Source of the DNA: Martelella mediterranea
Lineage (GTDB): Bacteria > Pseudomonadota > Alphaproteobacteria > Rhizobiales > Rhizobiaceae
NCBI GenBank assembly: GCA_003001975.1
Contig: PVUG01000003.1
Span: 62,001 to 126,000, forward strand
Reading direction: 5' to 3'
Length of the DNA stretch: 64,000 nt
The notes beneath the pieces were generated by a model, which was given only the letters and a program-made list of their open reading frames with translations, ran no database searches and was not told where the DNA came from. Below are positions 14,725 to 15,955 of this stretch, in pieces; the stretch's first letter is position 1, and each line of letters starts with the position of its first letter. A program made the position numbers and the translations under genes.

Positions 14725-15138
14725 TTATTCTTTGTCTTCGTTGTCGTCGTCGTGTTCCAGATCGCGCGCCACTTCCGGCGAATGCAGCAGTTCATCGATC
14801 TTGCGGAAGTTCTCAAAGCTGGTGTCGTCGCGGAAACGCAGTTCCGGCATGTATTTCATCTGCCGGATCTCGCGGCTGATGCGGCCGCGGATGAACTTCG
14901 CATGATGGTTCAGCGCGCGCACGGTCGCGTCATGATCCCTGTCGCCCAGCGGGGTGACATAGGCAGTCGCGATCTTCAGGTCCGGCGACATCCGCACCTC
15001 GGAAATCGAGACGACGGTGTTTTCCAGCAGCGGATCGAGAACATCGCCGCGCTGGAGAACCTTGGTAATGGCGGCGCGAACCTGTTCACCAACGCGAAGC
15101 ATGCGCTGGGAGGGCGCCGAGGAGGTAGCTCTCGTCAT
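14725..15138 (-). CDS. rbfA: Ribosome-binding factor A
   Basis: A 137-aa 30S maturation factor with a KH-like fold. Visible conserved parts are [38 protein letters not shown] and the C-terminal [18 protein letters not shown], then an acidic tail. The ATG at 15138 has AAGGTTG in front; the 54-codon upstream extension has no match to the family. It is separated from infB by about 0.8 kb of non-coding DNA, so it must have its own promoter. Confidence 0.95.
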
Positions 15139-15439
15139 ATCAACCTTGGTCTTTAAATCGTTCGTGTTTGTCTCGTGCCCGCCATTTGACGGGGTTCGAA
15201 CCCGCGCGGACATGCTCCGATGACTGGCGGGTCGTGTAACCCTTCGGCGGCAGAAGGTCAATCGCAGAACCGCCACCGGCCGGGAAACAGGAAAGCCCAT
15301 CGGCGGTGACCATCAAAAAAAACGACGTTTCAGCGCTGAAGCGCGATCATTTGATTCAGCGCAAATCGTCCGGCCCGATTCGGCGCTAGAACTGACTTCA
15401 GACAGATGAGGCACGTACCCGCCTCAAATAGCAAAAGGA

Positions 15440-15640
15440 ATTCAAAGCTCAGGGCGTTTCACGATCTCCTCCTCCTTCAATAGCTGAAACGCTTTGTAAG
15501 GCCGTCCCGCAGGCCAATCTCCCTCCTCTCAATTGCGGGGAATAAACGGATCGCCTCAAACGATCCGTTTCAGTTCCGGTCCAACCGGAAAAGCCCGGCG
15601 CGCTGCTCCTCAAGAGTTGTTCGCCGGGCTTTCTGTTTTA
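15440..15640 (+). ncRNA. Candidate small RNA with exposed anti-Shine-Dalgarno loops
   Basis: Hairpin 1: GCGTTTCA (15454-15461) with TGAAACGC (15485-15492), loop containing CTCCTCCTCC. Hairpin 2: CCCGCA (15506-15511) with TGCGGG (15534-15539), loop containing TCCCTCCTCTC. Hairpin 3: AAACGGATCG (15544-15553) with CGATCCGTTT (15561-15570). Then an AAGCCCGGCG/CGCCGGGCTT terminator stem with a T-rich tail (15591-15639). CU-rich loops on successive hairpins are the hallmark of rhizobial trans-acting sRNAs such as the alpha-r14/NfeR1 and mmgR types, which pair with ribosome-binding sites. No clear promoter was found; ends are approximate. Confidence 0.5.
15591..15639 (+). terminator. Terminator hairpin closing the candidate sRNA
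   Basis: AAGCCCGGCG (15591-15600) pairs perfectly with CGCCGGGCTT (15622-15631); the plus strand continues TTCTGTTTT. The 21-base loop is long but again CU-rich. Confidence 0.6.
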
Positions 15641-15663
15641 AGCGTTTGTGGTCGCCGGCGCGC

Positions 15664-15688
15664 ACGAAAAAACCGGCCGAAGCCGGTT
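15664..15688 (-). terminator. UUCG terminator hairpin, distal copy
   Basis: On the minus strand AACCGGC-TTCG-GCCGGTT is followed by TTTTCG. It is a near-identical copy of the infB terminator at 15905-15927; the pair flanks the mosaic repeat. Confidence 0.6.
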
Positions 15689-15720
15689 CAGACTGCCGCC
15701 AGACCTATCCACTCTACGGA

Positions 15721-15872
15721 CGTCATCCTCGGTCTTGTACCGAGGATCTAACCCCGTTGCCGCATGTGCGGAGCTTCTGTTTTACACCGGATTGAACGTT
15801 TCCGTCTTTCCATCCGAAACGTCTGTCGCGGGGAGACGTGCTTAGATGCTCGGGACAGGCCCGAGCATGACG
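15721..15872. repeat. RIME-like intergenic mosaic element, copy 2
   Basis: It opens CGTCATCCTCGGTCTTGTAC with a CCTCGG/CCGAGG palindrome and closes with a GCTCGGG/CCCGAGC palindrome and CATGACG. The ends are inverted relative to each other, as in copies at 4407-4520 and 41690-41777. Confidence 0.65.
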
Positions 15873-15904
15873 AATGAGGGTGTAGCATCCCTTGTCCACG
15901 CATG

Positions 15905-15927
15905 AAAAAACCGGCCGAAGCCGGTTT
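15905..15927 (-). terminator. Intrinsic terminator of infB
   Basis: AAACCGGC-TTCG-GCCGGTTT followed by TTT on the minus strand, 28 bases after the infB stop. The stem with a UUCG tetraloop and U-run is a textbook intrinsic terminator, and it uncouples infB from rbfA-truB. Confidence 0.8.
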
Positions 15928-15955
15928 CCTCAATTCTGTGCTCGTTGCTCCAAAA

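Follow-up and report, generated by a model that had tools for sequence, protein, structure and literature searches.

A predicted oxygen-controlled anti-Shine-Dalgarno small RNA between infB and rbfA in Martelella mediterranea

Organization of the infB-rbfA locus

The window, a stretch of 64,000 bp from a contig of Martelella mediterranea, carries a structured element on the plus strand at 15448–15575, in the gap between infB and rbfA. NCBIfam matches on both flanks bore out this placement, which had been proposed from the sequence beforehand, and truB was the next gene after rbfA. The RbfA protein of the window had its closest named relatives in M. radicis (96%) and M. limonii (90%). The features of the locus are as follows.

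14725–15138, minus strand: rbfA (NCBIfam RbfA)
15350–15365, core 15351–15364, plus strand: FnrN/FixK-type anaerobox TTTGATTCAGCGCAAA, 14 of 16 columns invariant, in nine of nine Martelella copies
15387–15392, plus strand: predicted -10 element TAGAAC, at fixed spacing to the anaerobox in nine of nine copies
15399–15570 (or to about 15639 via the second terminator), plus strand: predicted sRNA transcript, placed from the -10 position and the hairpins
15450–15496, plus strand: stem-loop 1 with a 12-bp stem (15450–15461/15485–15496), 12 of 12 pairs kept in seven distinct sequences
15500–15539, plus strand: element 2, with S1 GGCC/GGCC (15500–15503/15512–15515) and S2 CCCGCA/UGCGGG (15506–15511/15534–15539), pairable in five sequences
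15544–15570, plus strand: stem-loop 3, a perfect 10-bp hairpin with four pairs changed on both sides and a U-rich tail in G005 and G008
15593–15639, plus strand: second terminator hairpin GCCCGGCG...CGCCGGGC with T tract, from sequence and fold
15956 onward, minus strand: infB (NCBIfam IF-2, 800 bits)

The original prediction had set the RNA at 15440–15640. The hairpins do lie within this interval, but the predicted gene begins upstream of it, with its promoter at 15350–15392. The predicted sRNA would be approximately 172 nt long, or 241 nt if transcription runs on as far as the second terminator. The perfect 10-bp hairpin and, behind it, the terminator with a GC-rich stem and a T tract could both be located as described earlier. 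Stem-loop 3 is a probable intrinsic terminator in the divergent relatives, and the hairpin at 15593–15639 may in addition terminate the infB transcripts, which run on the minus strand. Consensus scans for promoters and terminators called nothing at the element, including this last hairpin.

The transcript might instead encode a small protein, with the hairpins being incidental, since in this genome (G000) the predicted transcript contains a 25-codon frame beginning at its nucleotide 8. However, the length and sequence of the frame differ even among close species and no frame was kept across the nine predicted transcripts; this reading was rejected as extremely improbable.

Folding, covariation, and strand of the element

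Folding of the stretch 15440–15645 gave a z value of -6.4, and none of 200 shuffles was equally good. Over 32 pairs in seven distinct sequences, 97.8% standard pairing could be observed; eight pairs were changed on both sides (14 cells so changed), and none of 500 shuffles reached the pairing percentage or the two-sided change counts of the element. Pairing dropped to 24–49% when the structure was slid along the alignment. One of the five covariation measures, the number of further pair types, was unexceptional (21 vs 19.0; 60 of 500 shuffles). The original prediction had made the RNA depend on stems preserved by covariation in relatives, and such covariation is what the eight pairs revealed. 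Apparent breaks in helix 3 of the covariation test arose because three divergent sequences had the 5′ S2 strand misplaced in the MAFFT alignment (A1); the pairs were rechecked after re-alignment by hand. Three pairs of stem-loop 1 showed changes on both sides, and GGGCGU/ACGCUU of stem 1 here was replaced by GGACAC/GUGUUC in G005 with no pair broken.

Among 182 pair cells of stem-loop 1, S1, and stem-loop 3, counted as cells and not as independent events, 15 were G-U, none was C-A, and one was of another type. This balance favours the plus strand and is what would be expected under selection on a plus-strand RNA. A minus-strand RNA, in which the 15 G-U cells would become C-A mismatches, was rejected.

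CU-rich loops

Loop 1 (UCUCCUCCUCCUUCAA, 15465–15480, 16 positions) and loop 2 (UCUCCCUCCUCUCA, 15518–15531, 14 positions) were invariant in all nine Martelella copies, whereas several loop and stem letters flanking both CU stretches varied. Bare CTCCTCC is not rare in the genome (298+197 sites; reversed-pattern control, 326+231), and the evidence therefore lies in the conservation and not in the motif. The CU runs had been expected in the loops of two hairpins; CTCCTCCTCC at 15466–15475 and TCCCTCCTCTC at 15520–15530 each lie between the arms of a possible stem, but the second is partly paired in the nested fold. A third CU-rich loop, which had also been suggested, could be read only in G012 (CCTCCTC) and not here (CCTCAAA). 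Stem covariation together with loop conservation supports well the central claim of the original prediction, namely that a new locus encodes a plus-strand anti-Shine-Dalgarno sRNA, and the element is very probably a real small RNA gene.

Element 2 and the proposed pseudoknot

Element 2 is laid out as GGCC-GU-CCCGCA-GGCC, an 18-nt CU loop, and UGCGGG, which makes two crossing helices possible. S1 and S2 could form together in all five sequences tested (G000, G012, G003, G005, and G008), and the linkers between the helices, of 1–3 and 0–1 nt, fit the geometry of an H-type pseudoknot. The rough energy of the crossed fold, taken as stacks plus an assumed flat penalty of 9.6 kcal and excluding loop terms, was -14.7 to -17.3 kcal/mol, compared to -8.6 to -12.2 kcal/mol for the best nested fold. 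In S1, one pair was changed on both sides and one on one side; pairing was kept in G003, where C-G is replaced by U-A and further pairs are present, and in G012, where C-G is replaced by U-G. S2 has no support from covariation because its core does not vary in the seven distinct sequences. Element 2 is better read as two crossing stems than as a nested fold, and the model is suggestive of an H-type pseudoknot that would present the second CU loop (15518–15531). If so, one of the two pairing sites could be turned on or off by the folding of the knot or by a partner that opens it. RydC of enterobacteria is an sRNA known for a pseudoknot; the region by which it pairs is not known to be an anti-Shine-Dalgarno loop within that knot.

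Predicted promoter and candidate FnrN-type regulator

The best-conserved 16-column window upstream of the RNA was TTTGATYCAGCKCAAA, with 14 of 16 columns invariant compared to a mean of 2.9 per 16 columns. FnrN and FixK bind TTGAT-N4-ATCAA (PMC7888657, in its accessible part), and the anaerobox consensus is given as TTGANCNNGATCAANG in the available text of PMC4999443. The left half of the Martelella box matches TTGAT exactly, while the right half, GCGCAA or GCTCAA, is off the consensus ATCAA. The predicted -10 element TAGAAC shares only four of six letters with TATAAT, and GCTA is invariant from 15385; the start was set by reading six letters from the TA of GCTA as the -10. In all nine copies, the predicted start (15399 in the window) follows the centre of the 14-bp anaerobox core by 41.5 bp, and -41.5 is the class II position of FNR-type activators. 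Activating boxes of R. leguminosarum are placed at -32 to -34 in the accessible part of PMC7888657, presumably numbered from the near edge of the box, by which the Martelella anaerobox would stand at about -35.

The pattern TTGATNNAGCKCAA occurs at two sites in the genome (reversed-pattern control, 0), and the loose pattern TTG[AC]N6[TG]CAA at four sites on the plus strand of the 64-kb window; the sequence alone is therefore weak, and the case for the anaerobox lies in conservation and spacing. The other copy of TTGATNNAGCKCAA (G000:C4:300919-300932, L132) is found approximately 65 bp before a gene that by eye is a small AhpD/carboxymuconolactone decarboxylase-like gene.

The genome codes for an FnrN-like protein with a CxxCx7C pattern, of which the best NCBIfam model was FnrL (228.8 bits, below the curated cut-off of 300) and the best PDB matches were FixK2 and FNR-type regulators. 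The likely ATG of its gene (L133, on the same contig, C4) is preceded by two loose-form boxes, TTGACTTTAATCAA and TTGCGCGCCGTCAA, 54 bp apart, which suggests that the gene may regulate itself. A double box is also carried by fnrN of R. leguminosarum according to the available text of PMC7888657, although its spacing differs. Five further clear Crp/Fnr-type proteins (>44 bits) could bind the box as well, and the identity of the activator is therefore one that we infer. The usual FixK/FnrN regulon is reduced in Martelella, as none of the 13 genomes had a ccoN (cbb3 oxidase) match that reached the cut-off. Judged from this promoter, the sRNA gene is probably oxygen-controlled. The anaerobox promoter is the most informative part of the locus, and it lies outside the stretch first proposed for the RNA.

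Distribution in Martelella and beyond

The element was present in the infB-rbfA gap of nine of 13 Martelella genomes; model R1, built from the nine copies, gave one match in each of the same nine and none in the other four. In a tree of rbfA-truB DNA from the 13 Martelella genomes and six outgroups, in which G003 was marked as a long row with unusual composition, the four genomes without the element fell on one branch (support 87/86, below the star of the program; 88% of bootstrap trees). The deepest-branching pair, G005 and G008, carries the RNA, and a single loss from the ancestral state is therefore the simplest account. At L124–L127 (G004, G006, G001, and G007), the gap held another coding sequence, transport-like by eye. 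The gap of M. radicis DSM 28101 (L011) contains the CU motifs.

Outside Martelella, the retrieved sequence covered both gene ends at 61 of 78 loci, and the infB-rbfA gap measured at most 204 nt in 53 of these and 239–1365 nt in eight; a short CU motif was seen in two of the 61 gaps (L061 and L072). When R1 was run against 247 Rhizobiaceae genomes (109 genera), five matched, namely three Martelella genomes and two of one other genus, while the Martelella genome G004 gave no match in this search. The matches in the other genus were weak (30–38 bits); all three R1 places in G062 were ar14 matches, and one of the two in G161, read by eye, looks ar14-like. R1 also gave a weak minus-strand match of 20.2 bits at 15539–15634, overlapping stem-loop 3 and the terminator. 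No match to the element was found on plasmids. BLAST matches occurred in 10 of 61 genomes, nine of them Martelella (including that of the window) and one G027, where a 27-nt fragment matched the second terminator.

The element could also be seen as a cis-acting part of the infB-rbfA operon, either as hairpins terminating in both directions or as an antisense transcript tuning rbfA. Its placement precisely in the gap that separates these genes, the second terminator that reads both ways, and the short gaps of most measured non-Martelella loci agree with such a role. This is nevertheless highly improbable, considering that the G-U pairs hold on the plus strand only, the plus-strand promoter spacing is fixed, the CU loops are invariant, and four of the 13 Martelella genomes lack the element.

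Relationship to alpha-r14 and other known RNAs

The original prediction had likened the element to rhizobial alpha-r14 (NfeR1) and mmgR-type sRNAs. NfeR1 is the best studied of the rhizobial anti-Shine-Dalgarno RNAs considered here. According to the accessible part of PMC10746234, NfeR1/alpha-r14 consists of three hairpins, each with the same CCUCCUCCC in its unpaired region. The same text describes it as silencing ntrBC and the mRNAs that code for ABC-transporter binding proteins, as responding to nitrogen and salt stress, and as having LsrB for its activator and NtrC for its repressor; SmelA075/SmelA099 are of the same kind (PMC3927594, available text). The Martelella RNA resembles it in having several hairpins with CU-rich anti-Shine-Dalgarno loops, and the targets of alpha-r14 include ABC periplasmic binding proteins (PMC10746234 and PMC3927594, same parts). 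The three-hairpin plan could be recognized in stem-loop 1, element 2, and stem-loop 3, with covariation, and the two invariant CU loops qualify the RNA as a cuckoo RNA in the wide sense, that is, hairpins with CU-rich anti-Shine-Dalgarno loops.

The covariance model of alpha-r14 (RF02344), however, scored the element at only 26.0 bits (E 0.0095) against a gathering cut-off of 58.8 and aligned only one CU loop of the element with a CU loop, and five other Martelella copies (L162, L166–L169) were without an ar14 match at E ≤ 0.5. CCUCCUCCC was absent from 15390–15660, where the loops are CUCCUCCUCCUUC and CUCCCUCCUCUC, but every one of the genome's three canonical ar14 genes contained it three times. 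The NfeR1-type promoter CTTAGAC-N17-CTATAT, which goes with LsrB/NtrC sites, was absent by eye in 15320–15450, the Martelella RNA having an anaerobox promoter in its place; element 2 has an extra possible helix compared to alpha-r14; and no DUF1127 gene adjoins the element, its neighbours being rbfA and infB. Since the general plan is shared but four sharper marks of the family failed, the RNA is not counted as a member of alpha-r14; membership was rejected on score, motif, and partner gene. Of the proposed kinship, the same working plan stands, while a relation by descent falls short on family score and CCUCCUCCC, leaving a kinship that is only functional or very distant. The mmgR family bears the Rfam name suhB. 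The mmgR part of the comparison found no backing, as the 14 Rfam matches at E ≤ 10 included no mmgR-type family. The matches to rsmX, sX14, and other Rfam families in the stretch were far below cut-off, appear to rest on terminators, and were set aside.

The canonical ar14 genes are located elsewhere in the genome (L115 on C23, L158 on C4, and L159 on C6), the three together scoring 106, 95, and 92 bits in descending order, and each carries three CCTCCTCCC. Two of the three, on C23 and C6, lie directly behind DUF1127 genes, as in the Rhodobacter CcsR locus, and no anaerobox-like site was found in the 650–700-nt pieces around the three genes. These observations bear on the alternative that the element is a diverged alpha-r14/NfeR1 copy with a general-stress job, whose box serves another Crp/Fnr regulator (of nitric oxide, cAMP, or similar) so that oxygen is irrelevant. 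The weak ar14 match, the similar three-element plan, and the ability of R1 to find the three canonical genes of the genome (19–34 bits) and those of another genus speak for it; the sub-threshold score, the missing CCUCCUCCC and DUF1127 neighbour, the five copies lacking an ar14 match, and the ar14 pieces lacking an anaerobox-like site speak against it, and we consider it unlikely. A more elaborate proposal, that of an anti-Shine-Dalgarno RNA specific to the genus, under oxygen control, of an origin separate from alpha-r14, and with the third loop of an H-type pseudoknot as one of its two blocking loops, is similarly doubtful as a whole.

RS0680a of Rhodobacter is of the CcsR kind. Anti-Shine-Dalgarno loops are described for it in the available text of PMC3927594, and the CcsR/cuckoo RNA family of alphaproteobacteria has such loops in common with the Martelella RNA; CcsR-type genes accompany a DUF1127 protein (PMC10253847, accessible part), unlike the Martelella RNA. 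FnrS of E. coli is an Fnr-dependent small RNA (PMC11340327, accessible part) and can be likened by role only, as an sRNA under an FNR-type regulator. By titles and abstract openings among the matches listed, with subscription journals mostly outside the search, no FnrN/FixK-driven anti-Shine-Dalgarno RNA was found, and none is reported in the accessible parts of PMC4842269 (FixK, sRNA) or PMC7143759 (FixK, microoxic, cuckoo). The literature search on Martelella sRNA found none, its sole match concerning another organism by title.

Candidate targets and proposed mechanism

A search for AAGGAGGAGG-N3-10-ATG in four Martelella genomes revealed 12 places. Three of them precede solute-binding-protein genes, namely L180 (G000, confirmed) and, by eye, L184 (G003) and L178 (G005), which are three different genes; one of the 12 was the RNA gene itself (L182). 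The strongest complementary sites precede different genes in different species. The pattern AGGAGGAG-N3-9-ATG occurred at 33 places in G000, compared to seven for the reversed-pattern control. Examination of 31 of these yielded 20 open frames of at least 90 codons, among which seven coded for periplasmic binding proteins (three DctP, two Peripla_BP_4, one SBP_bac_1, and one SBP_bac_5) and four matched no family. For the control, the strong but less complementary AAGGAGAA-N4-8-ATG was used; 30 of its 39 places were examined, giving 22 frames of at least 90 codons with one binding protein (20 of the 22 scanned; the remaining two look like ribosomal proteins). The enrichment of solute-binding proteins, 7/20 vs 1/22, had a one-sided Fisher P of 0.016, as a post hoc value on a small set from a comparison devised after the first matches, and alpha-r14 RNAs would pair equally with the same sites. 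The predicted loop 1 duplexes had a median of -20.2 kcal/mol for the 20 sites compared to -12.9 kcal/mol for the controls, a gap that arises because the sites were chosen for complementarity. The sRNA is probably an anti-Shine-Dalgarno repressor of uptake genes, held slightly less firmly than the oxygen control of its gene. The strengths given for the gene, its oxygen control, and the repressor role are judgements made without computation.

A broader action is conceivable, in which the loops copy the anti-Shine-Dalgarno tail of 16S rRNA and act as a global decoy, slowing initiation on many mRNAs at once. Loop 1 contains CCUCCUU, the core of the 16S 3′ tail, and the loops are invariant while the stems drift. 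This idea is improbable, as the invariant stretches of 16 and 14 letters reach well past that core and one class of genes is over-represented among the complementary start sites.

We favour, at a probability of approximately 0.6, a stand-alone trans-acting anti-Shine-Dalgarno sRNA on the plus strand that would be oxygen-controlled and would block uptake genes. At low oxygen, an FnrN-type regulator would bind the anaerobox at -41.5 and activate the promoter. The RNA would then present its two CU-rich stretches, with UCUCCUCCUCCUUCAA carried by a hairpin and UCUCCCUCCUCUCA by the second element, probably within a pseudoknot; in this scheme the stems are drawn from covariation and the loops from conservation. 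The CU stretches may pair with GA-rich Shine-Dalgarno regions, preferentially those of periplasmic solute-binding-protein genes, and block the start of translation, such that nutrient import would be cut while respiration is limited. If true, the blocking of ribosome sites would be under oxygen control, linking respiration to nutrient import, and a single genome would carry two sets of RNAs under separate control, both directed at ribosome-binding sites of one type.

Neighbouring features of the locus

A T-arm mimic, CGGG-TTCGAAC-CCCG inside an outer stem, was observed on the minus strand at 15177–15212, in the rbfA-truB leader, 39–74 nt before the rbfA start. GGGTTCRA was present in the rbfA leader of all 13 Martelella genomes. 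The T-stem pairs were kept in 11 of 11 aligned sequences and never varied, and thus show no covariation; single folds contained the T-arm in 10 of the 11 (not in G002), and the outer stem has other letters in G003. The mimic was not more stable than shuffles (z -1.2), and ARAGORN called no tRNA there. At -36 to -63 before rbfA, GGGTTCRA was found in 20 of 80 named loci, 18 of them outside Martelella, of which 15 belonged to one R. leguminosarum-like type. As TruB modifies this loop in tRNA and truB follows rbfA, feedback control via the mimic is possible; judged by title and abstract opening, none of the papers listed dealt with a T-arm mimic in the rbfA-truB leader.

A palindrome-rich insert (15690–15905) separates the RNA from infB, with one copy of a minus-strand terminator on either side (about 15667–15690 and 15905–15928). 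A different insert occupies this place in G010, and none is present in G002, G009, and G011. The insert resembles a mobile intergenic repeat of the RIME type.
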